Shown: in pieces, positions 10,935 to 62,483 of the stretch
Layout of the letters: each line of letters begins with the position of its first letter
Position numbering within the stretch: the first letter of the stretch is position 1
Assembly (NCBI RefSeq): GCF_946476835.1
Contig: NZ_CAMKWA010000004.1
Location: forward strand, 1 to 64,000
Reading direction: 5' to 3'
Source: an uncultured Neokomagataea sp.
Lineage (GTDB): Bacteria > Pseudomonadota > Alphaproteobacteria > Acetobacterales > Acetobacteraceae
Length of the DNA stretch: 64,000 nucleotides
The notes under the pieces: model-generated
Told to the model about the DNA's origin: nothing
The model's input: the letters and a program-made list of their open reading frames with translations, nothing else
Database searches by the model: none
Program-made: the position numbers and the translations under genes

Positions 10935-10953
10935 TACGTCGTGCCCTTAACGT

Positions 10954-13900
10954 TCAGGACATAGCCTGCTGATTAAGAAGTTCATCGACATGCCGCGCAT
11001 CTTCCGGCGACAAGCCCTCTCGAGCCGTAGACTGGATTTTGCCCTTGCTAAAATTCACAGCCAAATCCGTCACATAAGTCCCGAAGACTTCTCCCGCAGT
11101 ATTCAACAGCGCAACCTGATAACGCCCTTCCAAAACCAAGGCGTAACCACGTTTTGGATCAAACGTCCCCTCAAAGCCTGCACATAAAGGAGCATCTGCA
11201 TGCACAACAGCCACATCATGCCGTACGCAACGGTTCAATGCTGACAGAACGACTTCACCACGCTCTGGCTGAACTAAAGCAACATACATCTGCCCCGCAC
11301 GCTGTAGGCCCTTCAAGAAAGCCCACCCACGAATATGCAGAACACCTTCGGCTTCAACCTCACGAAGCGGCTCGCCCACCACCCCAGTAAAGTCGTCGAT
11401 AAACTGCTCTAGGCGCCCTTCTCCATGTGAGTGCAAGCCTTCTTTCTGAGGAGAAGCCAGCTTAATACCGCGCAACACCCCATCATTATGAGCAACCCGC
11501 TCAAAGTCTTCTAGGATTTGACCATTCGAAGGCGATACACGCTCAATTTCTATGATCTGCCCACCTTCAACCTCAATCTGGTAAGGCGTCAATTGGAACG
11601 CCCCTTGGCCTTGAAGCACGTTGATTAAGCCAACGCGGAAACGGCCTTCACACCACTTACCACGCAATGCTGCACGCCCAGAGAAGCCAGAACGGCGCGG
11701 CGAATCTGTGAAAAGCTTAGCAATATCACCACGCGTTTCACGCTGACATTCAACGTAAATAGACGGGGTATCAGGCCCTTCACCAATCAAGACAGCAAGC
11801 ATACGCCCCGCTGTAGAGATACCAGGCAGCAAGAACCACCCACGAATGTGGAATTCGTTCGCACTATCAAAATCGATCTCAACACCCGGACGGAAAACAT
11901 GATGACAAATATCATCAACGTAGCATTCCGCTCCTTGGATCGAGAACCAGTCATTCACTTCAACTGGCAACTCAATTGAAAGGTCCCGCTGTGTCGGCGG
12001 ATCAAAGATATGACGAGGCGGCGCTTGATGGCGCCAATTATTATGCGGCAACAAGTGCACTTGCCCTGCATCGATACGCAAGTCAGAGACACCCATATCA
12101 CGTCGTGGCGCGATATCACGATATAGCTGCAACAAGTCCCGAGAATATTCAGCCGCATCCGTCAAAAGATGAGGGCCAATATTCGCCATCATCTTGCGGC
12201 GTAATGCTTCAGAAGAGCGGAGCATTTCCAAACGCTCCAACACCATGCTCGGACGGTTAATCGGCACCTTAAAGCCGTTTACACCATCTTCAACGCGGTC
12301 TCCCAAAGCCCCCACATCCGTCACGATTGGAAGAAGACCATTCTGCCATGCTTCTGACAGAGAAATGCAATACGTTTCCGGCCAGATGGAGAGGTTCAGC
12401 GCAACGTCTGCAGCTTTCAACGCATCAATTTCGCCCATGTCATAACGGCCATACACCGTTACATTTGAGCGCTGCACTGAGTTAAGAACCGCCTCATATT
12501 CCGGATGGACGTAACCGAAAATATGGAAGTGGAAGTGATCGGGATGTGCAATCTCGATCAAACTCAGAATGGTGTCAGCCCCCTTCGTGCGAAGGAAGTT
12601 ACCAACGATTGCCACGCCTAATGGGCGGCCTTCCAAAGACTTATACGCTTTTGGCACAACCGGCACAGTGTTTTCAGGGCTTGGAATACCCGTAATCAAA
12701 CTGACCTTTTGATCCAAAATCGGATAAATATCATGTGTCAGGTCGCGTGAATGCTGCGTGCCGAACATAATTGCATCAACCGAACGCAACATCTTTGCGA
12801 TAAATGCACGGCGCGTCTGCTCACCACCATATTCAACATTTTCTGCCGCTTTAAGGGTAACGTCCGCCGCCAGTACAGACCGAACTTCGTCCTCAACATA
12901 GCGCAATTCATGGTTCAAAAGGTTATAACGCGACGAGACCAGCCAAAAATCATGCGCAGAGAATACCACGCCGGTGCCACTAGCCTTCGCGATAATCGGC
13001 AAAGACAACGCGTGGTGACCAAGGTGCTGGAAATGAACAACATCAATATTGTACTGCGCAATAACGCTCGAGAAGGCCATTTCCTCGGCCCCATCGCACA
13101 TAACATCCTGCCACCCGGCTTCAGGCACTTCAAAGCGATCAAGCTCTTGTCCGCTCGCCGTCGTCATCCAGCAAGAGCCTCCACGGCGCAGCCAGTAAAA
13201 GAACTCTACATCGCGCCCCAACATTGAACACAATGCTTGCTGATAAACCTCAACACCACCCCATGCTTGCTCATGAATCGTAGAGTGTGTGCACATCAAA
13301 ACACGCAGTCGGCGACGACGTTCGACCGGAACAATATCCCCCTTACGGCTACCGAAATCAGCGCCCGTAATTTCCTGCATCTTCCGCAAACGATTTTCGT
13401 ACAGATGGTGCTGCAATACAGACTTCTGTGCAGCTTGAGCAGCCTTACGACGCACGCTCTTGCTTTCCAGAATACGCGCAACGGCGGCAACAACCCCATC
13501 AGGGTCACGCGCAAGGCTTACACCATCGACTGTTTCGAAATGCTCACTCGCCATGCTTTCCGGCGCTTCAACAACCTGCGCAGTACCAGCAAGCCCAAGT
13601 TCAAAGAAACGCGGACCAGGAGCGGTCGCTTGGCTGACATCGCCATGGCTCGCATAGTCACGGAACATCGTCAGCGTAACCGCACTGACATTCGCAAAAT
13701 CAATAAACGCTTCATGGCTAACAGGACGCTGAATAGCCAAAGCTGCCAAATCTGCTGGGAGCGGTGGCAAATATTCATTCCCAGGGCAAATCAACTTCAG
13801 ACGCGCATCTGGGAATGCCGCGATAACACGACGCAACGTCTCAACGCGATTGGGCCACATCGTCCCCGCAAAGAAGATGTCATATTCCAGCTCATTAGCC

Positions 13901-46530: not shown

Positions 46531-47038
46531 TTTTTTGAACCATAGTGTGCTCTGCCACTGCAGTGGTGGGCGGAGCGAGTTTACTCGTGGGTGTTTGCGC
46601 ACCCGGATCAGCTGGTGAGACAGCTTGATCCACCGCCTCATGAGCAGCGGTAGAATTCTGTTGTGGTGGATAGCCCGGTAACGGCTCGAAGGACGTCGGT
46701 TTGCGGCCTGATCGCATTTCCCATTCATGGACACTGAGGCGCGCACCGATAGCAGCAGCATGATACTGGATCAGCACGGCTTCGCGTTCATACAATAAAC
46801 GCCAGTTATCCCGCGCCTCACGCATAGCCTCTGCCAGCCGTCCAGTTAAAACCTTCTCACGCTCCAGCATTAACTGTGTCTTTTGATTTTCGGCATTTTG
46901 CCCGTCAACAGCCGAACGTTGCGCCGTAATACGTGCTTGAACACGGCTACCAAACCAGCCGAATATGCCGGTAGCGATGGGCGTGAGGACCTCAATCCAT
47001 GATCGAACGGAGGTCAGTATCTCAACGATGGCGCTCAT
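46505..47038 (-). CDS. Phage protein with one membrane helix and coiled coil
   Basis: 177 residues. One hydrophobic segment (VLTPIATGIFGWFGSRV) near the N-terminus is followed by a charged helical region and a proline-rich, alanine-rich tail. Overlaps the preceding gene by four bases. Could be a holin-like or spanin-like lysis component, but no motif confirms that. Confidence 0.5.
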   Translation of the reverse strand: MSAIVEILTSVRSWIEVLTPIATGIFGWFGSRVQARITAQRSAVDGQNAENQKTQLMLEREKVLTGRLAEAMREARDNWRLLYEREAVLIQYHAAAIGARLSVHEWEMRSGRKPTSFEPLPGYPPQQNSTAAHEAVDQAVSPADPGAQTPTSKLAPPTTAVAEHTMVQKNEGNINAG

Positions 47039-49260
47039 TGATTAACGAGGCCGTTGTTTTGGCTGTCCGTCCATTTTCCAACACTCATATGCCAATACGC
47101 CTCGACACCCGTAATGCCATTGAGACGGCAATCACTGCACCATACATGAGCCCCATCAATCGCTTGCGGTGCTGATATTGGTAATTCTGCAAGCATGTAC
47201 GGCTGATCTGACGTTGAGCCGCCGCGAATTTGCAATGGAGCAGTAACTGTCAAAAACTTCGCGTCAGTCGGCGCAATACCGTTTGTCTTAACGTAGGACG
47301 CAGCAAGGCCGGACGACGCCGTAAAAAAGTCCGTGGCCGTAATACCCTTCCCAGATTTACTGCCGATACCATCCGCCAGAACGTACGGCATGGTAGCACC
47401 TTGAGGCATAATCGCGGGGCCATTTGGCATGACAATCAAACCATAGGTTGGGCTGCGATAAGATCCGCCAGCACCCAGCCCTATGCCGAACCGATAGCCA
47501 GCAGGATCATACACTAACTGACCGCCCGCAATCGCATTGGTGTCGTTGCGCGGGTCTTGGTTGTAATCGTACTTATACGCGAGATGAACGCTCGTCGTGG
47601 ATGTGTCAGGCGTTACATTGCCAGTCGTATCAACGTCTCTGAACTGCACAAGCCGAAGTGAGGATGTATCACCGCCGGACACGCCAGAACTTGAAAATTG
47701 CCACGCTTGAGATGTCCACTCATCACCGAGCGCTCGCGTTACAGCGTCCGGCTGGTAGATATTCGTAGCCTGCGTACTGCTATTGGCCATCGCTTGATAG
47801 GCGATCGAGCCAGAGAGAAGGCCCCATACACGCATGCCAAGCGGTAGCGCTCCGCCGCCTGCAACACCCACGCCATAACTGTCACGCGTGAGCTTGCCAC
47901 CGCCCACATTGTTGAGTGTATACGTCACGCCATGAATTGAGTTGATGTAGTCTCGCGGGTCCCAATTCCAAAGATCATGCTCATCATCGCACTCATGAAC
48001 CAGACTGTTGATTGTGCCGGACGGATTAGCGCTGTCTGTGCCAAGCTGGCGCGTCAGGGCGCACAATTCATATTGTGGGAAGGCTTTTGTGAAGACGCCA
48101 AAAATCACCGCTGGTGCACTAATGTTCGTGAATTGCGTGTCCAACGTTCCCGCCGCGCTGCCGTCAAACGTATCCCGCATTGGAATAAGGCCCGTTTTTG
48201 TGCCGTAGCCAGCTTGTGTCTGTTGCGGGAGATACCACGCCGTATCAATGTTGATGCCGGTCACATTCCCGAAAGCGTCCCGATTTACAGATGCGACGGT
48301 CCCGAAAAACATATTGAAAGCTTTACGGAAATACGCATCTGACAACCACGGCTCATTCCAGTTGTTCCCCTGAACATGCGTTGCCGCAACAACGTTTGTT
48401 GCGATGTTCATACCGGGAACGATCTGATTGCCCCAATACGCAGGAAGCGCAGGAGAGAAGTCCGCGCCATCAGCGCGAAATGTCACGGAATGCGTATTAT
48501 TGTCCGGATCGGCAAAAGCTGAAGAAGCGATGAAAAGCGGCGGTGTTGATCCGGTTTCTGTTGCGCGCGCGGCGGCGTCATAATTCAAGTTGCCGCCATT
48601 CGAGTTCGGGTTGCCATCTCCGACCATGCCAACCCATGTTCCGGCTGAAATCCCTGTCCCCTGTGCCATCGATTTGCCGTTCATGAAGACGCCATCAACG
48701 ACGCCACCTAAGCCACCCATAAATGGACGACCGTATGTGAAAATATGCCCCCAAGACCCCGTGCGCTGACCACCGATCTGGAGCGTACGATTTAATTCAA
48801 AGTTGAGCCCTTGCGTGTCGCCGGGGAGTTGTGGTGTGCGACCGTAAATGTCTTGCGTGGCGGCTAGGCTAATGATTGGAGAAGGCGGTTCAACACCCAT
48901 GATTGATTTGCCACCGCTATACACACCCGCTGTAGCACCGATCGCCGTAATATTGGCGCTGTTGACGTCTGCCGTCACGCGCAGGTTCGCATCAAGACCC
49001 GCCACGCCACCCGATGTGTTGACCTGTGTTTGTTGTACCGCCCCAGCTGAATTGGCAGCAACAGACGCAGCAGACTGCCCAGCAATCTGCGTCGTACCAT
49101 CAATATTGGCAAAATGGGCAACGCCATCCTGACGTACTGCCCATGTAGGGTTCACGGCGCTGGATGCAATCGCTCCGCCACGCCCCATCACCGGAGCCGC
49201 CTGCAGGGTGGAAAAGCTCAGCCCAAAAAACCAAAACGCAGTTAAAAGTCTTTTAAGCAT
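47035..49260 (-). CDS. Putative tail spike / tail-associated protein with signal peptide
   Basis: 741 residues of beta-rich, Gly/Ser/Asn-rich sequence typical of phage tail spikes and fibres. Unusually it begins with a Sec-type signal peptide (KRLLTAFWFFGLSF, cleavage near LQA-AP). I recognise no catalytic motif. It lies among the host-recognition genes, after gp48, the Gly-rich fibre and two small genes. Either the signal-like start is not cleaved, or the protein is exported rather than built into the virion. Confidence 0.55.
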   Translation of the reverse strand: MLKRLLTAFWFFGLSFSTLQAAPVMGRGGAIASSAVNPTWAVRQDGVAHFANIDGTTQIAGQSAASVAANSAGAVQQTQVNTSGGVAGLDANLRVTADVNSANITAIGATAGVYSGGKSIMGVEPPSPIISLAATQDIYGRTPQLPGDTQGLNFELNRTLQIGGQRTGSWGHIFTYGRPFMGGLGGVVDGVFMNGKSMAQGTGISAGTWVGMVGDGNPNSNGGNLNYDAAARATETGSTPPLFIASSAFADPDNNTHSVTFRADGADFSPALPAYWGNQIVPGMNIATNVVAATHVQGNNWNEPWLSDAYFRKAFNMFFGTVASVNRDAFGNVTGINIDTAWYLPQQTQAGYGTKTGLIPMRDTFDGSAAGTLDTQFTNISAPAVIFGVFTKAFPQYELCALTRQLGTDSANPSGTINSLVHECDDEHDLWNWDPRDYINSIHGVTYTLNNVGGGKLTRDSYGVGVAGGGALPLGMRVWGLLSGSIAYQAMANSSTQATNIYQPDAVTRALGDEWTSQAWQFSSSGVSGGDTSSLRLVQFRDVDTTGNVTPDTSTTSVHLAYKYDYNQDPRNDTNAIAGGQLVYDPAGYRFGIGLGAGGSYRSPTYGLIVMPNGPAIMPQGATMPYVLADGIGSKSGKGITATDFFTASSGLAASYVKTNGIAPTDAKFLTVTAPLQIRGGSTSDQPYMLAELPISAPQAIDGAHVWCSDCRLNGITGVEAYWHMSVGKWTDSQNNGLVNQ

Positions 49261-49645: not shown

Positions 49646-49966
49646 TTACACCCCCATATGCGTCACTGACGCGCTCACCACGATGGAAAAAGTTTCTGAA
49701 AACTGGATCACCCCATCCGGACGGATAAACTGCAGGTCACAGAACAACCGCCCGAGTGGCCATGACTGGGTCTCCGACCAAATATTCACGATGCCCATCG
49801 TATTGGCTGGTTTGCGCGTGAAGAGTTGGGACACCAAATTGCCTAAGGCATCACGGATTTGCGCGTTGATGGCGTAATCCGACAGATCAATGAGAGCGCC
49901 GTCATCAGCCGTGATCGTGCAGGCGATTTGGAAGGTCTGACCCGCTTTAACCTGCACTGCGCTCAT
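49646..49966 (-). CDS. Small phage tail-tip protein, Ig-like
   Basis: 106 residues. The start at 49966 shares bases with the stop of the upstream gene (TAATG). The beta-strand pattern (AGQTFQIACTI, DLSDYAINAQIRD, ETFSIVVSA) resembles the small Ig-like phage proteins that lie among tail-fibre genes. Function unknown. Confidence 0.55.
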   Translation of the reverse strand: MSAVQVKAGQTFQIACTITADDGALIDLSDYAINAQIRDALGNLVSQLFTRKPANTMGIVNIWSETQSWPLGRLFCDLQFIRPDGVIQFSETFSIVVSASVTHMGV

Positions 49967-50985
49967 TACGCGTATTCCCAGACAAGAACACGCCCAGGCG
50001 CACCGTTGCCCCCCGTGATGGTCCCCGTTCCGGTCGAGCCACAACCACCGCCGCCCGAGCCAAATCCTACAGCAGGATCGTTGGTCATCGTGTCGTTCGA
50101 TACGTTCACATTTTGCCCCCCAGTCCCCATTTGTGATGCGGGACCAACCGGGCACATAGGCGCGCTCGGTGATTTGCCATCCGCATTGGGAATTAAAAAA
50201 CCGCTATCCCCATTCTGCCCTTTAAGAGCAGCAGTGAATTGCAAACCTTGGGGGATAGGGTTGATGGGAAATACGTCACCGCCAAACCCTTGCGACGTCC
50301 ACACCGGTTTACCCGCAGCAACTGGCCCATTGACGGTACCACCATATCCCCCTTTACAGGTGACGAACGACCCAAACGAGCTATCGGTGCCATTGCCACC
50401 ATTCTGGCCGGGGAGGCCCGCGCCTGCTAACCCAGTCTGTACGGTTACATTGGACAGTGTGATCAGCGATAGATCAAAGTGTAAGCAGGCATATCCACCA
50501 CACCCACCAGCCCCACCCACAGAGGCTGTGCCGCTACCGCTTTGATTTCCTGGCGCGCCTCCACCAGCCCCACCGGCTCCGAGCACTTCTACAATACAGG
50601 ATCGCGCGTCTGCTCCGGGCGTATAGGACTGAGCGGATTGGATATCGACAATGCGCAATAAGCGGCCAGTTTTCAGAGCATTTATGGCCTGTTGCAGCTG
50701 ATTTTGTAAGTTCGTTGCCATAGCTTGCAAGGCGTTGGCATCAGTCTCGGCTACGGCGTTCGCTGCCGCACTCGCACTGCGCTGCATCGCCTGCCATATC
50801 TGTGTTTCATCGGATGCGTCGGCTGTGAGACCGGCCGCTTGCTGAGCATAGATCAACGAGTTGAACAGCGCGTTCATATCCACATCAGTGATCATCGTCC
50901 CGCTAACGCCATTTTGACGGTCACGTGCGACAAACTGACGCCGCCCATTGATGACAATATTTCCCGGGGATGTCGTGTAGTCCAT
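49966..50985 (-). CDS. Gly-rich phage tail fibre / adhesin
   Basis: 339 residues. The first ~110 are helical and resemble a fibre attachment region. From about residue 130 the chain is very rich in Gly (EVLGAGGAGGGAPG, VGGAGGCGG, FGSGGGGCGSTGTG) and ends in APGRVLVWEYA. Gly-rich tips of this kind form the receptor-binding end of some phage adhesins. It directly follows gp48-GH32, so it likely binds the host surface at the same tail tip. Confidence 0.68.
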   Translation of the reverse strand: MDYTTSPGNIVINGRRQFVARDRQNGVSGTMITDVDMNALFNSLIYAQQAAGLTADASDETQIWQAMQRSASAAANAVAETDANALQAMATNLQNQLQQAINALKTGRLLRIVDIQSAQSYTPGADARSCIVEVLGAGGAGGGAPGNQSGSGTASVGGAGGCGGYACLHFDLSLITLSNVTVQTGLAGAGLPGQNGGNGTDSSFGSFVTCKGGYGGTVNGPVAAGKPVWTSQGFGGDVFPINPIPQGLQFTAALKGQNGDSGFLIPNADGKSPSAPMCPVGPASQMGTGGQNVNVSNDTMTNDPAVGFGSGGGGCGSTGTGTITGGNGAPGRVLVWEYA

Positions 50986-52979
50986 TAGCTCATCGCCTTT
51001 AAAACGGCATTCGTCACCATGACGGCTCCCCCACCGCAGGAGAGCAAGAGGTCACGCGCTGCCATCGGTGCCGCATCAAGCGCCGTCACTGCGACCGCAC
51101 CATCATTCACAAAAAACTCAACGGAGTGCGCATCAACGATAGCGGTGACACTCACTCGCCCATTGGGCATGGCAAGCGGAAAATTGCGTTCTGCACTCCA
51201 CGCCTGATCTGTCGTTGGTACGCTTCCTGATGAGCCACGATTTAAAAATCCGTAGCGTCCAGACGGGATTAAAGCCAATTGGGTGAAATTCTCACCAATG
51301 TCCCGCACAGACAGATACACACCACCAGCAGGCCACGCCCCATTGACCGGCTCAAGGTCAAAATCAAGGCGGAAAAAATCAACGCGATGCGTCCGAAAAT
51401 CAAAGGGCGTGCCATCATTGATCACGGCGGCTGGGTACGATGTCTCGCGCAGATAGACGGTCCCCTGATTGTGTACCGGTGCATTCCGCACAATGGGATA
51501 ACCACCCGAGCCGATCTCTAAGCGCAGCACACGCGGCAAGGTCTGCTGGCCGTTGAACCCCGGCTGCGCCAACGCATCCGCATAAGCCCAGTTATTCATC
51601 CACGCGACCGCAATGGCCTGAGCGTGCGGATCGTTACTGGACGTGTCATTGGTAATGGCACAGGCATAAAAATCGGGGCCATTATCCAACCACTGACCAC
51701 CCGCAGCATCCGGCGTAAAGGTCGTACCGTCAAACCAACCTACCCAATAATGGGTGCCTGTTGTAAAGCCTGCCTCATACCCATTACAGCCACAAAACAT
51801 CACCCATTTATCTTGGGTCGTCGTGCCATCTGCATTGTAGAGATGCAGTTGAATAAGCTGCGGACATTCTAATGTGCCGAGTGCGCCTTGTATAAAGCCA
51901 CTCTGATACACCCATGATTTTAGATCCGTGCTAGCATAAATCCCGACCTTCCCGATTTCGGCCAGGACCATGTTCCAGCGGCCTGTTGGCGCATGCCAAA
52001 ACACTGACGGGTCACGAAACACTGGGTCGGACATGCCCTTATTCGCATTCGGGTTTGTCTGGACAATCTGATCAAATGTGAAGCTCTCCCCACCATCATG
52101 GGACACCCATCGGGCAGTGCCTTGGCCGCCTAAAGGATTACACGGCATCGTGCACAGCGCGATAATCGCACCAGCACCAAAACCAGCCGTATTTTGCGTA
52201 TCCACCACAGTCGATCCCGTCCATGGATCGCCATATTCCGTTGTGTATTTTGGGATCGAAACACCAAGGTCCGTCCAAAAGACTAGATCTGGCGACACAA
52301 AATGACGCCATTCTGTACCATTTCCGGTTGGATAATCCTTGTTCCACAGACACCAAAAATGCCATTGCCCGCCCAACCACAACGGACGCTGTGCATCATT
52401 GATACGCCCACCGGGGACCATCATGTGCTGACGTGGCCATGCAATATCGCGCCCATTGATCTCGAAGGAGATACTCGTGTGGGGCTGGCGGTTGCTGTAA
52501 ATGGCGCGTTGTAAGCCAATGTTTTGCGCAGGCAGTTGTACCACCCACGTATAAACATCCTGCCCGTCCGTCACGACATCCCCCGCGACAGCCTCACCGC
52601 ACACGGTTTGCTCTTGCTCGATAATCGCCAGATTGACGCCAAAATTCTGGCCCAGCTGCTGATAATACGACACGGACTGTCCGCCACGCGCGGTCCAACG
52701 GCCATACAAAAGTTGTTGCAGTTGCGCTGTGGCTAAAACCCCTTCATCACGCCCATACGGATCTGGACCGAGCAAATCGGCGTAATCATTGAGCAAGAGT
52801 TGACTGTTGAGTGGGCTGATCTCATTGCGCAGCGCTCCAATATCTGCCTCTAGCTGGGCACGCGGCATGGCCACGGCCATCAGATAACTGCCAATATTAC
52901 TCTCAGGCACTGGCCATGCCTCACTCTTTGGCATGAGTGAGAGATATTCATCGCGGATTTGCTCAGCTGTGCGGGTCAT
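50985..52979 (-). CDS. gp48/YmfQ-type tail protein fused to a GH32 beta-fructanase
   Basis: About 664 residues. Residues 1 to about 175 resemble the YmfQ/DUF2313 (Mu gp48) tail protein, which links baseplate and fibres: TAEQIRDEYLSLMPKSEAWP and the LNDYADLLGPDPYG region. From about residue 185 to the end is a GH32 enzyme: five-blade propeller then beta-sandwich. All catalytic positions are present: Asp195 in RINDAQRP (nucleophile), Arg322-Asp323-Pro324 (FRDPS) and Glu371-Cys372 in LECPQL (acid/base). It should hydrolyse fructan, most likely levan. ATG at 52979 overlaps the gp47 stop (ATGA). The enzyme would be part of the virion tail. Confidence 0.88.
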   Translation of the reverse strand: MTRTAEQIRDEYLSLMPKSEAWPVPESNIGSYLMAVAMPRAQLEADIGALRNEISPLNSQLLLNDYADLLGPDPYGRDEGVLATAQLQQLLYGRWTARGGQSVSYYQQLGQNFGVNLAIIEQEQTVCGEAVAGDVVTDGQDVYTWVVQLPAQNIGLQRAIYSNRQPHTSISFEINGRDIAWPRQHMMVPGGRINDAQRPLWLGGQWHFWCLWNKDYPTGNGTEWRHFVSPDLVFWTDLGVSIPKYTTEYGDPWTGSTVVDTQNTAGFGAGAIIALCTMPCNPLGGQGTARWVSHDGGESFTFDQIVQTNPNANKGMSDPVFRDPSVFWHAPTGRWNMVLAEIGKVGIYASTDLKSWVYQSGFIQGALGTLECPQLIQLHLYNADGTTTQDKWVMFCGCNGYEAGFTTGTHYWVGWFDGTTFTPDAAGGQWLDNGPDFYACAITNDTSSNDPHAQAIAVAWMNNWAYADALAQPGFNGQQTLPRVLRLEIGSGGYPIVRNAPVHNQGTVYLRETSYPAAVINDGTPFDFRTHRVDFFRLDFDLEPVNGAWPAGGVYLSVRDIGENFTQLALIPSGRYGFLNRGSSGSVPTTDQAWSAERNFPLAMPNGRVSVTAIVDAHSVEFFVNDGAVAVTALDAAPMAARDLLLSCGGGAVMVTNAVLKAMS

Positions 52980-54055
52980 GTCGTCCCCCACGTGATCGTA
53001 CCGAGCACTGGCATCTGATTTGCGGCAAATTGCACATCACTGTTGGGCTGACTGATATCCGTCTGCACACCGGCCACTTGCACCACAGCGCTTTCCAACG
53101 CGGAGAGATACAGACGGCCACCAATGCCAACCGAGAGGCAGTAGGGTTGTAGCGCCGCCGTGACGGCTGAACGCAGCGCCTGCGTATCTGGGTTCAGCGT
53201 AATCGTCAGGTTCTGCGGCACAATCTCCGCTGCCATCACGGTCACACTGCCTTGCACAGGCCGAGCCGCATCAATGGCGCTTTGAATCTGTGCCACTTGT
53301 GCGGAGGACAACACCGCTCCCCCCGACGCCGCCACAAAAATGCCGACCGTACCGGGGCCATACCATCCGGGCTGGACCCCCACATACGCTGCGCCCGCCG
53401 CGCGTGCCCAACGCTGATAATCCGCCGTATTGCCTGCACCCGGTGGGTTACGCACGGATGCGATAATCCGTGAGCGCCAGCTCTCCACGGCTTCAATTTC
53501 AGCACCACCCGTGAAACCACTTTGATCCGCCACAACATTGGTGATGCCAAGGATCGGGGTCACAAAATTGAGCGTGGCATTAGGTGCTAAATTACCAATG
53601 GTGCCAGCCGTCACACAGGTCACAGCCACAGAGACACTGCTGCCCGCTGCTATAGAGATACCCGTATTCACGGCCCATTGCACGGTGCCGTCTGCCGTCA
53701 CGAGGCTCCCCGCCAAGACCGTCACGGCTTGAGATGCTGTCACAACAATCGTACCTGTGGCGGCCGTCGCACCGAGGCGCGGCGTGTCCCACATTATCGC
53801 ATGATCAGGCAGTAATCCGCTGCCGGGGGTCACCGTGGCCGTCGTCGGCATCAACTCCAGCAGTTGATCTCGTAACGCGAGATACACCTCGTAATCACTG
53901 AGCCCAGAGAGTACGGCCAACGCGTTTTCCAGCGTAGCCGGTGCCGTTGCATCAAGCGTGACCACCGTGCCGTCCGTCGCTACAAAACTCTGCGCCGCTA
54001 ACGCCGTCACAAAGCGCTGCGCCAAAGCTGATGGCGTTGGAATAGGCGCGCTCAT
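52976..54055 (-). CDS. Baseplate J-like protein (Mu gp47)
   Basis: 359 residues. The core ESWRSRIIASVRNPPGAGNTADYQRWARAAG-type region is the signature of the baseplate J family, which forms the wedge of contractile tails. Starts directly after gp46 (four-base overlap) and continues into gp48. Confidence 0.9.
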   Translation of the reverse strand: MSAPIPTPSALAQRFVTALAAQSFVATDGTVVTLDATAPATLENALAVLSGLSDYEVYLALRDQLLELMPTTATVTPGSGLLPDHAIMWDTPRLGATAATGTIVVTASQAVTVLAGSLVTADGTVQWAVNTGISIAAGSSVSVAVTCVTAGTIGNLAPNATLNFVTPILGITNVVADQSGFTGGAEIEAVESWRSRIIASVRNPPGAGNTADYQRWARAAGAAYVGVQPGWYGPGTVGIFVAASGGAVLSSAQVAQIQSAIDAARPVQGSVTVMAAEIVPQNLTITLNPDTQALRSAVTAALQPYCLSVGIGGRLYLSALESAVVQVAGVQTDISQPNSDVQFAANQMPVLGTITWGTT

Positions 54056-54534
54056 AGGCTGGCCTCATAGGTCAACGCCATAGTGCCCTCGACAGAAATT
54101 TGCGTCATCAGCTGCCCTTGAGCACCCCATGCCGTAGCCGCATCAATCGTGACACCATGATAATCCGCAATGTCATTGACGGCATCCAAAACAGCGGCAT
54201 TTACCGCTTGTCGCGTCTCCTCCGTGCGCTTCGCACGCGCAAAGAGCCAGAGCCTTGACCCTAAACGCTGATCGTCGGGCAACAACACGTCCCCAACATA
54301 GCCGCGCCGATCAAACACACCGGGCGTTACGCCATTCAGCTGTGCAGGGGTGATATCCTCCGGCTCAGCACGGCGATCCGTTGATAATGCCACCAGCAAC
54401 GGACTGGCCAATGTCATATCCAACGCAATCCGCCCCCGGCCATTACCAGTAGGGACGATTTTCAGGTCCGTCAGGCCCTGCGCATTAGGCGCGGCTGCAA
54501 TGGTGGCGCGTGAAATCATGCCATAAGCATGCAC
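54052..54534 (-). CDS. Phage GP46-like baseplate protein (Mu gp46)
   Basis: 160 residues. LASPLLVALSTDRRAEPEDI and the FDRRGYVGDVLL segment fit the GP46 baseplate family. Coupled to gp47 by a four-base overlap. Confidence 0.82.
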   Translation of the reverse strand: MHAYGMISRATIAAAPNAQGLTDLKIVPTGNGRGRIALDMTLASPLLVALSTDRRAEPEDITPAQLNGVTPGVFDRRGYVGDVLLPDDQRLGSRLWLFARAKRTEETRQAVNAAVLDAVNDIADYHGVTIDAATAWGAQGQLMTQISVEGTMALTYEASL

Positions 54535-54566: not shown

Positions 54567-55130
54567 CTACCCCGTCTTATTGGGGGCAGAGGTTTTCGCG
54601 CCGCCACTTTGCACACCACCATGGACATGATTTTGCAGTGAGACAGTTCCGGCCGTCACATCACCTTGTGCGTTTATTGGCCCTGTCACCGTTAAGCTGC
54701 CCGTAATGGCAACGCCACTGGTCGTGACATCCAACACGGTCTGGCCTGCAATGGCGACCGTCATTTCCTTGGCCGCATCCACGCGTATGAGCTGGCCAGC
54801 ACTAAAATACAATCGCTGCCCTGCGCTGTCATACACCACAGTTTCCCCCTCACTCAAACCACCCATCCGGGCGGCTGACGGGTTTGCCGGTGGAAACGCC
54901 ACACTATCCGAAGGGTCATTCCCCGTTTGCAACACATGTACGATCGCACCATCTAAAGGTGCAAAACTCGACAGGCCAAAGGGCTGCAACACCGGGACGC
55001 GTGAGCGCTGCTGCCCATAATGCAACTGTACATCCACACATTGCTCCGGGCCCGTATCATCCACTGCTTCCACAACGCCACGCAATATGAGCGAGCGCAT
55101 GGCGTTGGAGAGTTCATTCCAGATTGTCAT
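54567..55130 (-). CDS. Baseplate assembly/spike protein (Mu gp45)
   Basis: 187 residues. The middle part resembles the OB-fold of phage spike proteins (RSRVPVLQPFGLSSFAPLDGAIV), and the C-terminus is a repeating strand helix ending in NHVHGGVQSG, the metal-binding HxH type apex of central spikes. It pierces the outer membrane. Confidence 0.85.
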   Translation of the reverse strand: MTIWNELSNAMRSLILRGVVEAVDDTGPEQCVDVQLHYGQQRSRVPVLQPFGLSSFAPLDGAIVHVLQTGNDPSDSVAFPPANPSAARMGGLSEGETVVYDSAGQRLYFSAGQLIRVDAAKEMTVAIAGQTVLDVTTSGVAITGSLTVTGPINAQGDVTAGTVSLQNHVHGGVQSGGAKTSAPNKTG

Positions 55131-56464
55131 CGCCCAAACGCCCGTCCTGTGCTGGTGCGACGTCCACCCGACCGGCTCGGAGCATCCGCATCGCCCGTTA
55201 AATCATACGCGTCCGGCGGTACGACCGAGATCCGCGTTTCAAACCGCGTGCCCTTTGCCACCCATGTCACCGCCCCGATGAGCATATCGCCATCCAGCTG
55301 ATTATACGCATCCTGCACACTCACGAGGCTGTTGGGCTGCCACAAATCGCCTGCTTTATTCAGAAGACCTGGTACGGTGTAGACGAACGCTGTGGCATGT
55401 GCCCGCGCCGTCCGCATCCGCCAATCCGCTTGATCTTGCAGCGTCCAAGGCGTTGCATCTGTACGCGGTTTACGCGCTTTGCGGCGACGATGGTGAACCG
55501 TTGCTGAGCGATACGCGCCCTGCGCTGGCACCGTCGGCATTTGCCCCAAAGCTGTGGCGTCGAGTGAGGGGTTTGCACTGTTTTGTGCCGCAGCGGAGCC
55601 GCCGCTTTGCGTTTTCGCAAGATGCACAACGGGACGATAACGTCCCACGCCCGGATCAATAGCGTGCCCAAAGCGTGCAGAGGCTGCCAATTCCCCGGCA
55701 CGGCGATGGCCCGTTGCTGACTGCGACTGCGGTGCACCTTTGATATTAAGAGCCGCTTTAGATCCCCTTAAAACACTATTAAACTGCCCTTTGACCCATG
55801 TGTCCGAATGCCGCTGCATCAGCCGCGTTTGCATGGAGGACACATTTCCTCCCGGCCAAATCAAACGGTCGGTTGCCCGTGTTGTCCCAGCTTTTGTCAG
55901 CACAATCCCACCAATGCCGTCAGACGTGACAAGAATACCGCGTTGACGTGATAAGCGCTCAACGGCCGCCAGCACCGTATCCTGCGGCTCTAATGCGACG
56001 AGCGTAAATGGCGCACCTGTTTCCACCTGCCTCTGCAAGGACACGCCATAGGGCTGGATTAAGCTGCCAATGACGGTTTCCAGAAGTATCTTTCGGTATT
56101 CAGCGGGACCATTCGGATTGACGCTGCAATCAACAAGATCCCCCGTCGTATCGCGCCCAGAAATGGTGACATGGAAACTATGCTCATCCCCTGAGGTGTT
56201 CACGGCCTCCACAAAACCGCGGAACACGATCTGATTCTCAATCTCGATTTCCACCCGATCATGAATACGAGCCGTTGGCTGAAAGCCATCTGGGAAAGGA
56301 AAGGGCTCCGCCAGATCAACACGAAAGGTGCCCGCGATATCCGCCAGATCACGTCCCACCTCACACGAGGTCCAATTATGAATAGAATGCCCATTAATCC
56401 GTACAATCCATGGGCGGGCATGGCTAACAACGGTTTCTACTCCGGAGGCAGACACAGCACTCAT
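55127..56464 (-). CDS. Baseplate hub protein (Mu gp44, gpP)
   Basis: 445 residues. It resembles the gpP/gp44 baseplate hub: an N-terminal segment with FRVDLAEPFPF and FRGFVEAVNTSGDEHSFHVTISGRDTTGDLVD. Its gene lies between N and gp45, as in Mu. Four-base overlaps at both ends. Confidence 0.86.
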   Translation of the reverse strand: MSAVSASGVETVVSHARPWIVRINGHSIHNWTSCEVGRDLADIAGTFRVDLAEPFPFPDGFQPTARIHDRVEIEIENQIVFRGFVEAVNTSGDEHSFHVTISGRDTTGDLVDCSVNPNGPAEYRKILLETVIGSLIQPYGVSLQRQVETGAPFTLVALEPQDTVLAAVERLSRQRGILVTSDGIGGIVLTKAGTTRATDRLIWPGGNVSSMQTRLMQRHSDTWVKGQFNSVLRGSKAALNIKGAPQSQSATGHRRAGELAASARFGHAIDPGVGRYRPVVHLAKTQSGGSAAAQNSANPSLDATALGQMPTVPAQGAYRSATVHHRRRKARKPRTDATPWTLQDQADWRMRTARAHATAFVYTVPGLLNKAGDLWQPNSLVSVQDAYNQLDGDMLIGAVTWVAKGTRFETRISVVPPDAYDLTGDADAPSRSGGRRTSTGRAFGR

Positions 56465-57864
56465 AAATCAAGCACCTCAACCACAGCAGGCCCCAAAACC
56501 CCCGGATGCGCCACCGCATTGCGCGTCACCAGATCATCAAAAACGGTTTGCACATTCGCTTTTGTGTCACCCGCCACCGCATAGGCTAACACCCATGATG
56601 ACACACAACTCGGGACATCTATGGCTCGTACGGCCGGTAAGCGACCTACCTGCACCGTAGCATCCGCAATCAGCGCCACTTTGAGATCACGGGTCGCCTG
56701 CCACAACCCTGTTAAAGACTGAGCGGCACCAGAGGAGGCTGTATTTTCAATCGTGATAATCAGTGCATCCAGTGCCGCGAGATAACGATCTCGAGCAGTC
56801 AATGCGTCATCACCAGACACAAACGTCAAACCCACCCATGCGGACATGAGCTGCGAGACAATCAAAGCACGCGCTGCGACACCCAATGTCAAAACCGAGG
56901 CAGCATTTGGTGAAATATCTGACAATGCCCCCGATAATGTCCCAATCTTCTCAGCCGCAGACAACAGCAGATCACCACACTGTGCCGCCGTAATCACCTG
57001 CGTATCGTCACCCATGACAACATCAGCAGGTGCCACAATGGATTGCGCGGGGTCGGTAATCGCGTTGGCAATCGCCACCGGCATGCCTGCCAAAACACCC
57101 GTGACAGCATTGGCGTAGGTCGCATCGGCATTCACCGCCGGGACGCTCACCCCCGCTGCCAGAGCCGCTCTGGGGGCAGCAATTGCCGTCTGAATAGGCT
57201 GGGGCGTTGAGCCTGTAACACTATCCCACACACCACCGGACTGCGAAAGAAAAGAACGGACACTCCCCGCCAATGCCAGCGGGATGGAGAGTGGCGCTAG
57301 AACACCCTGAACTGCCAGCGTGGCTTCATCCACCAACGCATCCGCTTTTTCCAAAACGTTGGACACCGTATCGGTGATACGCTGCAGAAGATTGCCCGTT
57401 TTCGGTATGCCGGGATCACGCACAACCGATACGCTGAACGTCGCCATGCGCATATTATGGACATCAAAGGCCACGTCACCGGGCTCAATGATCCGTACTC
57501 GCAGCCGCCCCCACCATGGATGCACTAACGTGGTGGTACCCGGTTTTTTCAAAACGGTTACCATGCGTTTGGCGCGCATCACATAATCATCCCCGACAAT
57601 CACGCCTGTCAGACGCATCGGGGTTTCAAGATTGCCGAAATCCTGAAAAATCTGCTGATTAACCGCCAAATTCGGGAATAAAACCCGCACCACGCGCCGT
57701 CCAGCGGCCTCGCGAGAGTTGATCATGTCAAACGTCACGCCACCCAAAGCGGCTGCATTTAATAGCCCCGACAACGCACTGGATGCCACACCGCCGACCC
57801 CCGGTATGGACGATAAAATACTGGCTGATGATCCCAGACCAAAAGAGGACAGCGCACCCGACAT
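56461..57864 (-). CDS. DNA circularisation / tail protein N (Mu gp43)
   Basis: 467 residues. The N-terminal FDMINSREAAGRRVVRVLFPN and GDDYVMRAKRMVTVLKKPGT segments match the DNA_circ_N family. In Mu, N is a tail-assembly protein that also protects DNA ends during injection. Lies between the tape measure and gpP. Confidence 0.86.
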   Translation of the reverse strand: MSGALSSFGLGSSASILSSIPGVGGVASSALSGLLNAAALGGVTFDMINSREAAGRRVVRVLFPNLAVNQQIFQDFGNLETPMRLTGVIVGDDYVMRAKRMVTVLKKPGTTTLVHPWWGRLRVRIIEPGDVAFDVHNMRMATFSVSVVRDPGIPKTGNLLQRITDTVSNVLEKADALVDEATLAVQGVLAPLSIPLALAGSVRSFLSQSGGVWDSVTGSTPQPIQTAIAAPRAALAAGVSVPAVNADATYANAVTGVLAGMPVAIANAITDPAQSIVAPADVVMGDDTQVITAAQCGDLLLSAAEKIGTLSGALSDISPNAASVLTLGVAARALIVSQLMSAWVGLTFVSGDDALTARDRYLAALDALIITIENTASSGAAQSLTGLWQATRDLKVALIADATVQVGRLPAVRAIDVPSCVSSWVLAYAVAGDTKANVQTVFDDLVTRNAVAHPGVLGPAVVEVLDL

Positions 57865-57866
57865 GG

Positions 57867-59903
57867 TTATGGCCTTTGCGTCATGCGCCCTGCATTGGGC
57901 GTAATATGAACTGGGATTGGTGTATTCGGGCCAACGGAGGCTTGTAGGCCGGGCGCGAGCGAAACTTCCAATTTAATGGTCTGGCCATCGCCCGAACCGG
58001 CAGGCTGACCAGAATGATGATAATGCCGCCACAGCGCATAACCGCCAGCACCCGCAGCGGCTATTCCAGCCCCCGCCAGCAAAACGGGCCACGACACGCC
58101 AGCCAATAATGCGCCGCCACCAACTTCCGCAGCCGTCAGCGCCGTGGCTTCCGTCGCGGCAAGCCCAGCCCCTTCCGCAACAGCAGCCTCACCAGCTCCT
58201 GCCGCCACCGCTTCACCAGCACCCGCCGTGGCAGCACGCCCGATGATGCGCCGTTTTAGGGATTTCATTACGCCCCAACCGGCTTTCACGGGGCCTGAAA
58301 TCGCACCGATAGCCGCAATGCCTGCCGTACCAGCCAGAGTTGCACCACCAAGGCCAAGCACCGTAGCATTTGCATAAGGGACATGTTTATCCACGGCCTC
58401 CATCGCAGCCGCGAGGTGTTGAAACCCATACGTCACACCGCGCAAAATAGGCAGGAACCCAGTGCCCACCTCCTGCATGAGTTCATGCCAAGATTCATCA
58501 AATGCTTTCATAGCAATCAGCTGGGTATTGCGCCCGGTATCATAATCTTCCTTGATGACGCTCTGATTGGCTCCAGCCGTCCGGCGATGAATCTCTTCAT
58601 ATTGATCCATATGCATCAATATGGCCTGAACGAACCCACGATCCTGCTCATTATTAAACAGTGTTCCCAGTGCCCGACGATCTTCTCCACGATGGGTGAT
58701 CCTATCAACCGCCTGCAAAACAGCGAGCATCGGGTCTCGCCCCGAGCGGCGAGCACGATCTTCGATCCCAAAAAGGTCAACACCGTATTTCTCAAACCGA
58801 TGTGCCGTGTGTGGACTTGTGATCGCTTGGATAAAGGCCCGCGTATCGGTGGTCGCTTCACCTTCCGTACCCGTGGATTTTCGCACAACCGCCAATGCCG
58901 CCGCGAGGTCATCCACACCAGATCGCCCCGTTACACCTAGGGCCCCTGCAGCGGCAGCAACTTGCGGCAAAAGAGGCGCTAATTTTTCGAAGGGCAGAGC
59001 AGCAGATTTTCCTGCCAACGCTACAGATGCCAAAGCCCCCGGCAAGTTAGCATCCGTGATATGCATATTTTCTTGCAGCGCAAATGTAGATCGGGCCACA
59101 GCATCTGGGTTCGCATTATAGGCCGTAGAAATGCGCGCCACTGTTGGCAGCACAGCATTCAAACGGGTGCGATTATAACCTTCACTTGAGAAAAACCCGG
59201 CAGCCTCAGCCAACTCTTCACCACTCTGCCCGGTATCTCGCGCCAGTTGATGGATCTGTCGCTTAAAATCGGCCGCAAAGCGATCATTCTCTGCTCCATG
59301 CAGATTTAATCCAATGCCGATATGGCGGATCGTATTGTCAAAATTAGCGGACTCTCGAACCGGCTCCACAAGTCCAAAGCCCGCAGCTGCAGCGCCAAAA
59401 GCCTTATTAATCCCACGCTCACTCTCCTCGTGGAGATGCCCTAAAGAACCGATGACCCCATGATTGCCACCACCAGAAATCCCACCGTTAGCAGAACGGT
59501 TCACGGAATCATGCGCCCGGTTTGCCGCCTCCGTAACGGCATTCAACCCTTCAACCGCTGAACTTGTCCCTACTCGTGTGCGCTCCATAGCCGTATTAAG
59601 AGATGTCGCTCCTTCAGCAGCGCGCCCTAGAGCGTTTCCCGCGCTTCCCGCGCTAGCAGCTGTTTCACCTAAGCCTTCGCTCAAGCCATGCGCTGTCGCT
59701 GTTGTCCGCTCAATCGCTTCACTCAGCGTATTCGTCTGTTCAACACAGCGCGGTACCGGCTCCCACGCTTCATCAAAGCCACGATTTTGGCCAATACGTT
59801 CGAGCGCGGAACTTAATTTCGTAACGAGCTGATCAATGCGCTCAATAGGACCGGAGAGTTTATCCTCTAACGTCAGTTCAAATTGTGCCGTCAGATTAGA
59901 CAC
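57867..59903 (-). CDS. Tail tape measure protein (Mu gp42)
   Basis: 678 residues starting with GTG at 59903, directly after a TGA that ends the frameshift extension of the tail chaperone. An N-terminal coiled-coil stretch (RIDQLVTKLSSALERI) is followed by a tape-measure core (FDNTIRHIG, AAGFFSSEGYNRTRL) and two hydrophobic regions near residues 540-630. It sets tail length. Confidence 0.9.
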   Translation of the reverse strand: MSNLTAQFELTLEDKLSGPIERIDQLVTKLSSALERIGQNRGFDEAWEPVPRCVEQTNTLSEAIERTTATAHGLSEGLGETAASAGSAGNALGRAAEGATSLNTAMERTRVGTSSAVEGLNAVTEAANRAHDSVNRSANGGISGGGNHGVIGSLGHLHEESERGINKAFGAAAAGFGLVEPVRESANFDNTIRHIGIGLNLHGAENDRFAADFKRQIHQLARDTGQSGEELAEAAGFFSSEGYNRTRLNAVLPTVARISTAYNANPDAVARSTFALQENMHITDANLPGALASVALAGKSAALPFEKLAPLLPQVAAAAGALGVTGRSGVDDLAAALAVVRKSTGTEGEATTDTRAFIQAITSPHTAHRFEKYGVDLFGIEDRARRSGRDPMLAVLQAVDRITHRGEDRRALGTLFNNEQDRGFVQAILMHMDQYEEIHRRTAGANQSVIKEDYDTGRNTQLIAMKAFDESWHELMQEVGTGFLPILRGVTYGFQHLAAAMEAVDKHVPYANATVLGLGGATLAGTAGIAAIGAISGPVKAGWGVMKSLKRRIIGRAATAGAGEAVAAGAGEAAVAEGAGLAATEATALTAAEVGGGALLAGVSWPVLLAGAGIAAAGAGGYALWRHYHHSGQPAGSGDGQTIKLEVSLAPGLQASVGPNTPIPVHITPNAGRMTQRP

Positions 59904-60745: not shown

Positions 60746-62242
60746 TTACACCTGCATCTGTAGGACGTTAGCCAGCACGATCAAGGAGCCCATCGGCTTG
60801 ATCGGCAGGTAAGAATTCACGCGGGAGCGATCACGCTGATCACGCACGAAGGAGGCGGTGGCCACCATCGTGCCGACATCGTCAATCCACCCCATATTTT
60901 CATAGAGTTTACATTGCGCCGCCCATGACCCCAGCAACGTCCGACACGTTACAACACCAGAGAGGTTTGATGCGGTCGATCCGTCATCCGCCAGTTTGGC
61001 GTTGTAATAGGTGGCCTCGACATAGGCGTTCCACTCATACCGCACCCGCGCACCAACTGCTGGGATCATGACATCCCAAATGCCGCTGGCCTGCTGTGTC
61101 GCTGGGTCCGTCACGCGCGTCGTCACAACACGCTCAAAACTGACGGTCCCATCGCGCGCAACGGTCAGCGTCGTACAGCCATTTGTCAGCAACGCTTGAC
61201 GCTGCGTACGGCTGAATTGATTTAACGGCGACGGACCCAAGCCAGCGAGCGTGTTGAGCGGCAAGCCCCGCAATTGCCGCGCAGGATCAGCGTTCAACGA
61301 GGCTGCCCCCTGTGCAGCGGCGGCTGCCACTAATTGCCACGGGCTCCAACTCGGTGACGTCGCACTGAGCAATACCAGTTCTTCTGCCGTACTGAACTGA
61401 GACTGCAACTGTAGGATTTCACCCTGCGTCCCGCTCACAGCTACCCAGACACGTGCGTCTTGGGCAACCATAGCGCTGCAACGGCGCCGCGCCTCGAGTA
61501 CAGCAGACTGAATATTCGCCTGATCATTCAACACCAGTACAATATCCGTGTACCATGTGTTGCCGAGAGCTTGCAGCGCAGGCGTAATATCCGGCGCGCC
61601 CACGCCATTCGCGAAACCACTGGCCACAACCGTGAGGTTGGGTACTTGATCTCCGGCCGCGGCAGAAACCGTCAACCCGGTTTGATTGCCCGCAGCCCCC
61701 CAATCCATCATCGTTAATTGGACAGCGACCCCATTATTGATGAGTTCAGCTGTAACACCCACTTGTGTCGTCAATTGAGACGCTTGTACGGCTGACAATA
61801 ACGACGCAGCCAATTGAAAGACCGTCGCTCCAGCAGAAACCGCAAATGCCACACGATATCCACTCACCACGATAGCGGCAGTGCCTGAAGCGCTCGGCGT
61901 TCCATTAAACGTAATCTGCGCAGTCGGTAATACCATCCCAGCGGTCGGAGCAACACCAACGGCGTCTACCGGCACATCGGGCCGCTCCGTTACAAAAGAA
62001 GTAATGGCCTGTGTCATCACCATTCCTGCCCCAAATAATGGAGCAGGGTTAGCTACGTTTTCATACACAACATTGGGAGCTGCAGCGCCATTAGAACGCT
62101 GACCAATGATCACGGCCCGCAAGGGCATGCTTGACAGTGATCCCGCAGCTGGTACCGACTGGATTTCGGTATAGGACCCAGGAACAGCCCATTCGCCCGG
62201 GATTTGTTGAAACACCGGTTGTACAGAATTATTCGTGCTCAT
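60746..62242 (-). CDS. Tail sheath protein (Mu gpL)
   Basis: About 498 residues. The N-terminal FQQIPGEWAVPGSYTEI and the C-terminal IKPMGSLIVLANVLQMQV flank a typical sheath layout. The start at 62242 is chosen because GAGGAG lies seven bases upstream, inside the end of the gp38 gene; an ATG at 62263 lacks such a site. Confidence 0.92.
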   Translation of the reverse strand: MSTNNSVQPVFQQIPGEWAVPGSYTEIQSVPAAGSLSSMPLRAVIIGQRSNGAAAPNVVYENVANPAPLFGAGMVMTQAITSFVTERPDVPVDAVGVAPTAGMVLPTAQITFNGTPSASGTAAIVVSGYRVAFAVSAGATVFQLAASLLSAVQASQLTTQVGVTAELINNGVAVQLTMMDWGAAGNQTGLTVSAAAGDQVPNLTVVASGFANGVGAPDITPALQALGNTWYTDIVLVLNDQANIQSAVLEARRRCSAMVAQDARVWVAVSGTQGEILQLQSQFSTAEELVLLSATSPSWSPWQLVAAAAAQGAASLNADPARQLRGLPLNTLAGLGPSPLNQFSRTQRQALLTNGCTTLTVARDGTVSFERVVTTRVTDPATQQASGIWDVMIPAVGARVRYEWNAYVEATYYNAKLADDGSTASNLSGVVTCRTLLGSWAAQCKLYENMGWIDDVGTMVATASFVRDQRDRSRVNSYLPIKPMGSLIVLANVLQMQV

Positions 62243-62483
62243 GGGCTGGCTCCTCATGGCCACTCGCTGCCTGCGTTACAGACGTCTCATCGCCATGGGC
62301 TGGCTCTTCGTGGCTACTGGTAGCCTGCACGGGCGTTTCCTCGCTCACCAAGTCACCTTCCCGGAGCATGCGCGCCCAATAGGGATCTGCCGGATTAACC
62401 TGAAATTTTTCAGGGACAGGTGTACCATCAGGTGCCACCACACGTCGTCCAGCTGCTGCACTGACCGTTTTCATCTCCGTCAC
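62229..62483 (-). CDS. DUF2635-like protein (Mu gp38)
   Basis: 84 residues. The N-terminal GRRVVAPDGTPVPEKFQV and DPYWARMLREGDLV match DUF2635. The tail holds a tandem duplication of 18 codons (HEEPAH repeated), and the second copy supplies the GAGGAG ribosome binding site for the sheath gene, which overlaps it by 14 bases. Confidence 0.82.
   Translation of the reverse strand: MTEMKTVSAAAGRRVVAPDGTPVPEKFQVNPADPYWARMLREGDLVSEETPVQATSSHEEPAHGDETSVTQAASGHEEPAHEHE

Follow-up and report, generated by a model that had tools for sequence, protein, structure and literature searches.

We examined a gene on a 64,000-nucleotide stretch of DNA from an uncultured Neokomagataea sp. (Acetobacteraceae; NCBI RefSeq assembly GCF_946476835.1, contig NZ_CAMKWA010000004.1, positions 1 to 64,000), here called the window, in which a phage baseplate wedge protein of the gp48 (BW3) type is joined in one reading frame to a complete enzyme of glycoside hydrolase family 32 (GH32). 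We consider it likely that the product is a levan depolymerase carried by the virion on the baseplate wedge of a Mu-like temperate myophage, its virion location, activity, substrate and role in adsorption all being predicted. Because the enzyme is fused to a wedge protein, we infer that it is present in the virion, and GH32 activity, levan as the substrate and a part in phage entry are likewise what we would expect of it. By analogy with phage Mu, one copy of the fusion protein per wedge, with the levan-cutting enzyme on its C terminus and six wedges in the baseplate, would place six levanase domains in a ring beside the fiber-docking loops; when such a particle met a levan-coated acetic acid bacterium, these domains would cut the slime, and fibers and tube could then reach the cell.

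Two domains in one reading frame

The fusion gene starts with an ATG at position 52979 and ends with a stop codon at 50985-50987 without internal stops; an alternative GTG start 12 bases upstream would give a protein of 668 amino acids (aa). Its parts are the following.

50985..52979, minus strand: gp48-levanase fusion gene, 664 aa, stop codon included (open reading frame, Pfam and PHROG matches, other copies)
52446..52979, minus strand: gp48/BW3-type baseplate wedge domain, residues 1-178 (PHROG 203, family profile against PDB 9ki1 gp48, fold, gene order)
51516..52427, minus strand: GH32 N-terminal catalytic domain, residues 185-488, a five-bladed propeller by family fold (PF00251, E 2.6e-50; PDB 9h8i)
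51081..51314, minus strand: GH32 C-terminal beta-sandwich, profile-matched portion, residues 556-633 (PF08244, E 7e-7)
52395..52397, minus strand: D195 in RINDAQRP, expected nucleophile (sequence; role according to excerpts of PMC4595243)
52011..52013, minus strand: D323 in VFRDPS, expected transition-state stabilizer (sequence; role from the same excerpts)
51867..51869, minus strand: E371 in LECP, expected acid/base (sequence; role from the same excerpts)

The enzyme begins at about residue 182 and occupies the remainder of the protein, with GH32N and GH32C profile matches above their cut-offs and a match to PHROG 21583 "levanase" (E 3.6e-67). Its closest PDB chain by sequence is the endolevanase LevB1 of Bacillus licheniformis (9h8i; residues 185-639, E 1.1e-84, 288 bits), followed by a levan fructotransferase (E 6.7e-44, 153 bits) and an exo-inulinase (128 bits). 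When the full-length protein is modeled (43 aligned sequences, pLDDT 82.3, pTM 0.75), its best PDB fold matches are the same B. licheniformis levanase (E 8.8e-40, target TM 0.89) and then levan fructotransferase; a trimeric parallel beta-helix of the tail-spike type was not found in this model, which matches GH32 propeller enzymes. The fusion has the motifs and fold of LevB1 (31% identity in the structural alignment), whereas LevB1 is a free cellular enzyme, unfused to any phage protein. An earlier note on this DNA, made from the letters alone, had proposed a single open frame with a gp48-like and a GH32 part, the retention of D195 (RINDAQRP), FRDPS and E371 (ECP), and a first motif of levan-active form. 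These readings held: domain matches lie at both ends of the 664 residues, the motifs read as claimed, and the endolevanase and the levan fructotransferase share with the fusion an NDxQ first motif that the NDPNG enzymes lack. The GH32 assignment and the fold, which the note had left to be checked, were borne out by PF00251 and PF08244 and by the 9h8i-like model, with the levan-type grouping drawn from the nearest PDB chains.

The N-terminal part is matched over residues 1-162 by PHROG 203 "baseplate wedge subunit" (E 1.7e-22), and a profile of 49 homologues of this part finds the phage Mu gp48 chain 9ki1_a (E 8.5e-16). When modeled separately (pLDDT 83.6, pTM 0.56), it has 9ki1 gp48 as its top Foldseek match (E 1.1e-7, with a TM of only 0.49-0.57 and an rmsd of 7.1), and further contractile-tail baseplates come after it in the list. 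The gp48-like identity suggested in the earlier note is thus favored by the PHROG profile, the family profile against solved Mu gp48, the fold and the gene order, whereas the Pfam family PF10076 missed its cut-off, a point to which we return. Mu gp48 (BW3, PDB 9ki1) resembles the N-terminal part in family profile, fold and gene order but has 180 aa and no enzyme, whereas the window protein carries about 480 extra residues with one. Since close ordinary gp48 relatives terminate at about residue 180-200, a length similar to that of the gp48 domain in the fusion, an ordinary gp48 seems to have been kept whole, with the enzyme added behind it. The Mu baseplate has six wedges with one gp48 each, and the fiber docks on gp48 residues 133-155 (excerpts of PMC11915804); loop 125-141 of the fusion, a low-confidence stretch of the model, may be the equivalent of this fiber-docking loop. 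As a separate observation, a distant gp48-type protein (L264, genome G612) is extended at its C terminus by about 220 aa that by eye resemble a LamG/ConA-type lectin.

Copies, origin and rarity of the fusion

We found four copies of the fusion: the one in the window, a second in the same genome at 92% identity (C29, a contig of 16.9 kb that carries Mu-like tail genes), a third in Neokomagataea anthophila TBRC 2177 at 98% identity (L061), and a 667-aa fusion on an IMG/VR contig (L011) at 60% identity across the junction. The D195/D323/E371 triad and the junction are kept in all four. The earlier note had advised a search in other Acetobacteraceae, which the N. anthophila copy answers, with C29 and L011 in addition, and had named a frameshift between the two parts as a possible flaw. 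The data do not bear this out, as the fusion is open throughout in the other copies (92%, 98% and 60% identity), and because the intact fusion recurs on another contig of the same genome, in N. anthophila and on an IMG/VR contig, a frameshift or an assembly error is very unlikely. Comparison of the window copy with that on C29 (Nei-Gojobori) gives a dN/dS of 0.081 in the gp48 part and of 0.061 in the GH32 part; the enzyme thus evolves under purifying selection. The L011 pair was left out of this calculation because its synonymous sites are saturated. Recombination swapping the GH32 part alone was considered for the window and N. anthophila copies, which differ by 1 change in gp48 and 75 in GH32, and set aside as nothing special in a tail region that is mosaic throughout. 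Another contig of N. anthophila (L261:5609-7233) holds a further GH32-like gene, split in two frames and with ETP replacing ECP, which adjoins tail- and lysis-like genes and looks decayed.

The GH32 part has its closest relatives among cellular enzymes, one from an Acidobacteriaceae metagenome-assembled genome (MAG; 48%) and one from Sphingomonas sp. NFR04 (46%). Both look, by eye, like exported enzymes, and no phage genes were seen within 8 kb on each side of either, the flanks having been inspected by eye with no family search. Two other origins were considered and rejected. The host's own levanase is an unlikely source, as the four fusions are not nested among the Acetobacteraceae cellular levanases in the tree; a tree uniting them with seven rows of such levanases was disfavored at a p-AU of 0.029, a weak value because the group was picked after the first tree was known. 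Descent from the Bacillus phage levanases is unsupported, phiNIT1 and Goe9 forming a separate branch. Elsewhere (L044:5941-8451, genome G131), a levanase-like GH32 is fused to a Hint (intein-like) domain, with no phage genes around it by eye.

In a scan of named genomes, among which the window's own genome may be absent, the N. anthophila copy alone matched from residue 1 among the best 80 of 303 relatives; the remainder of these 80 matched the GH32 part, a few of them from residues 125-165 on. None of 29 phage records and none of 39 plasmid records matching the fusion covered 80% of the query. Eleven of these phage records are unannotated human-gut phages (MT83..., MT84...) at 22.6-31.0% identity, among which there may be a tail fusion, and four Escherichia phage records match at 21% identity. 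All of the best 80 of 117 gp48 relatives in IMG/VR were examined: 78 end 168-231 residues past the start of the match, one is cut by the contig end, and one has the GH32 enzyme (L142, on the same contig as L011). Among 14 further Acetobacteraceae gp48 frames, a subset of the matches in the sampled genomes of the family chosen mostly for a long frame or high identity, none has a GH32 part. The best viral match in a BFVD fold search was A0A6G5Y3Y0, a 911-aa viral protein that could be a precedent for the tail fusion; in the same database, the giant viruses Fadolivirus and Satyrvirus also encode GH32 proteins.

A Mu-like prophage and a second levanase after Baseplate_J

The neighbors of the fusion gene are those of a Mu-type tail operon.

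49966..50985, minus strand: tail-fiber-like gene, downstream, in the gp49 position (PHROG 863 "tail fiber assembly", E 1.3e-33; PHROG 6202 tail fiber protein; PF21722); TAATG overlap with the fusion gene
52976..54055, minus strand: gp47, Baseplate_J (PF04865, E 7.9e-54); overlaps the fusion gene by ATGA
54052..54534, minus strand: gp46, baseplate wedge 1 (PF07409)
54567..55130, minus strand: gp45, spike (PF06890 and Apex motif PF18946)
55127..56464, minus strand: gp44, hub (PF22255, PF21683, PF21929)
56461..57864, minus strand: gp43, tube initiator/DNA circularization protein (PF07157)
57867..59903, minus strand: tape measure protein (PF10145)
60746..62263, minus strand: tail sheath (PF04984)

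The order sheath, tape measure, gp43, gp44, gp45, gp46, J, fusion, fiber is that of phage Mu, and the ATGA and TAATG overlaps are what coupled translation in a tail operon would lead one to expect. Past the window edge, the same contig holds gpT, protease I, a virion morphogenesis protein, MuF, the Mu portal, MuB and the Mu transposase, together with a ParB-like protein, a repressor and a terminase match below its cut-off. From the Mu tail order and from gpT, protease I, portal, MuB and transposase on one contig, the element is identified as a Mu-like prophage, apparently complete in gene content. Near the end of the tail operon lies a gene for a 741-aa protein (47035-49260, minus strand) with, by eye, a signal-peptide-like N terminus, no match in Pfam or PHROG, and a place among the most diverged genes across related prophages; it is possibly an extra host-recognition protein. 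A D12-class adenine methyltransferase (PF02086; 45730-46761, minus strand) near the prophage end is well conserved across the related prophages.

A levanase also occupies the position after J in another phage type. On a non-Mu phage contig (L141, IMG/VR UViG_2744054785_000002), a 692-aa protein encoded at 9545-11623, directly after the Baseplate_J gene and before a fiber-like gene, carries a levan-type GH32 in which the triad is present; the gene order resembles the V-W-J-I-H of P2. The window's genus also has, in genome G390, a 213-aa homologue (L248) that matches L141 residues 1-143 at 88% and 627-689 at 43%. Because this homologue matches both ends of the carrier, the L141 levanase sits inserted within it, and because such a carrier homologue occurs in the window's genus, the L141 host is probably related to that genus. 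Uninterrupted homologues of the carrier are L248 and L270-L273. All 42 IMG/VR loci of the carrier were examined: one is L141 itself, one is truncated, and 40 are without the levanase (195-242 aa), four of these with 82-86% identity to the L141 carrier part. Comparison of the carrier with gp48 (hhalign probability 65%, E 6e-5) suggests that the two may be remote homologues. In other Acetobacteraceae genomes, homologues of the carrier with frames of 424-467 aa (L252-L257) have extra beta-rich-looking stretches near the levanase site, which by eye look like binding modules, and the post-J carrier site may be a general insertion slot.

In both L141 and the window fusion, the protein that immediately follows J carries a levan-type GH32 complete with its triad, but in L141 the enzyme is inserted rather than appended, the carrier is only remotely gp48-like and the gene order is P2-like. 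In the tree, L141 stands on a long branch apart from the four fusions, and a single GH32 source for both phage types is not rejected (p-AU 0.119 for fusions and L141 as one clade). The appended and inserted layouts and the different carriers, that is, architecture and not the tree, suggest that fusion took place separately in each, or that there was at least a re-fusion. Classical virion depolymerases are trimeric beta-helical spikes or fibers, whereas the fusion would be a beta-propeller enzyme on a wedge protein present once per wedge in Mu; the likeness to them lies in the joining of a polysaccharide-cutting domain to a structural protein of the tail, the job being predicted. Since gp48 occurs once per wedge and GH32 can act as a monomer, while spikes and fibers are trimeric, the wedge slot would suit a monomeric beta-propeller enzyme. 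The broader proposition, on which our judgment is evenly divided, is that the post-J wedge protein (the gp48/gpI slot) is a general mount for monomeric polysaccharide-cutting enzymes in contractile phages, on which levanases were mounted at least twice, appended in the Mu-like phages of Neokomagataea and kin and inserted in L141, in phages of fructan-making hosts.

Competing roles and significance

The host genome bears on the proposed substrate. GH68 genes, which the earlier note had suggested looking for, are present: the window's genome has four genes of this levansucrase/inulosucrase family, and a stand-alone host levanase on contig C11 has two of the four at a distance of no more than about 7 kb. 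Across the genus, 25 of 26 genomes contain GH68. In this host levanase (L042; G000 contig C11, 5119-6552), the listed start codon is placed almost at the catalytic motif, which may reflect a wrongly assigned start or an unusual N terminus. Several findings weigh against a levan depolymerase on the wedge. GH68 enzymes can also produce inulin-type fructans, and GH68 genes are therefore not proof of levan; the host also has a levanase of its own besides other GH32 genes, so that levan is perhaps no strict barrier. The fusion is rare, occurring in 2 of 26 genomes of the genus and in at least 2 of 397 sampled genomes of the family, with at most three candidates scored per genome. PF10076 (Phage_Mu_Gp48) matches residues 11-151 at E 2e-6 and 28.1 bits, below the curated Pfam cut-off of 37.4, and a whole-genome search with it at E 0.001 gave no match in the window's genome (G000), the fusion gene itself being missed. 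Finally, model confidence is low to moderate at loop 125-141 (block means 40-52) and at the junction, residues 161-190 (64-70).

Four other roles can be set beside that of a virion-borne depolymerase. The best of them, which we nevertheless regard as unlikely, is that of a soluble levanase acting after lysis: structural proteins are often overproduced, and surplus or clipped fusion protein freed at burst would clear levan for the progeny, the fusion serving to couple expression to the late genes. In phage phiNIT1, the poly-gamma-glutamate hydrolase PghP is described as nonstructural and released at burst, and LevP as not being a tail spike (both in excerpts of PMC6966330); the phiNIT1 record has no tail-annotated gene within 4 kb of levP. 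Yet a soluble role needs no fusion with a conserved junction, which is kept down to 60% identity, nor a baseplate carrier, and a second phage type also houses its levanase in a baseplate protein.

Slightly less probable again is that the enzyme acts on another fructan or a sucrose-type sugar (inulin, plant or nectar fructans, mixed exopolysaccharide) instead of levan. GH32 specificities are broad, and the GH68 products noted above leave room for inulin-type chains, but LevB1 and levan fructotransferase outrank exo-inulinase among the solved relatives, the first motif is the NDxQ of the levan group and not NDPNG, and the PHROG match is to a levanase family. We think it improbable that the GH32 domain is a levan-binding receptor-recognition module that retained its fold and lost turnover; apparent binding modules do occur, by eye, on gp48 and J-adjacent proteins (the LamG/ConA-like tail of L264 and the beta-rich inserts of L252-L257), but the three catalytic residues are invariant in all four fusions and also present in L141. 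A cargo (auxiliary metabolic) gene supplying the lysogen with fructose is very improbable, for although PHROG classes its levanase family under moron/auxiliary genes and the host has several fructan-related genes, the enzyme is a domain of a baseplate gene within the tail operon, its N terminus is the gp48 part, with no ordinary signal peptide apparent (no export prediction was run), and a host levanase is already present near two GH68 genes.

A virion-borne levan depolymerase on the wedge would differ from the phage levanases found in print. The earlier note described these as separate proteins, and the literature agrees in the parts available, both for phiNIT1 (PMC6966330) and for the GH32 genes of SP10, phiNIT1 and SPG24 (PMC4595243). 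Excerpts of a review of virion-associated enzymes name the SP10 levanase and do not describe it as structural (PMC5380687), and those of another review list levanases as a class (PMC7916357). The Bacillus phage enzymes (phiNIT1 LevP, SP10, SPG24 and Goe9) resemble the fusion in being phage-encoded GH32 proteins of the same broad levan-type group but are stand-alone genes, as seen in the phiNIT1 and Goe9 neighborhoods, and those two fall on the separate branch mentioned above. No gp48-GH32 or baseplate-levanase fusion appeared among the papers listed in searches of the open-access literature. Virion depolymerases are usually sought among tail spikes and fibers, and surveys that select candidates by such annotation (e.g., by the criteria quoted in PMC13123978 and PMC6872550) would overlook an enzyme borne on the wedge. 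If the reading proposed here is correct, the window encodes a virion-borne levan depolymerase, whereas the phage levanases in print are separate proteins. It would also link the entry of phages into acetic acid bacteria to the fructan slime of these hosts and provide a modular, directly testable means of mounting enzymes on contractile particles.

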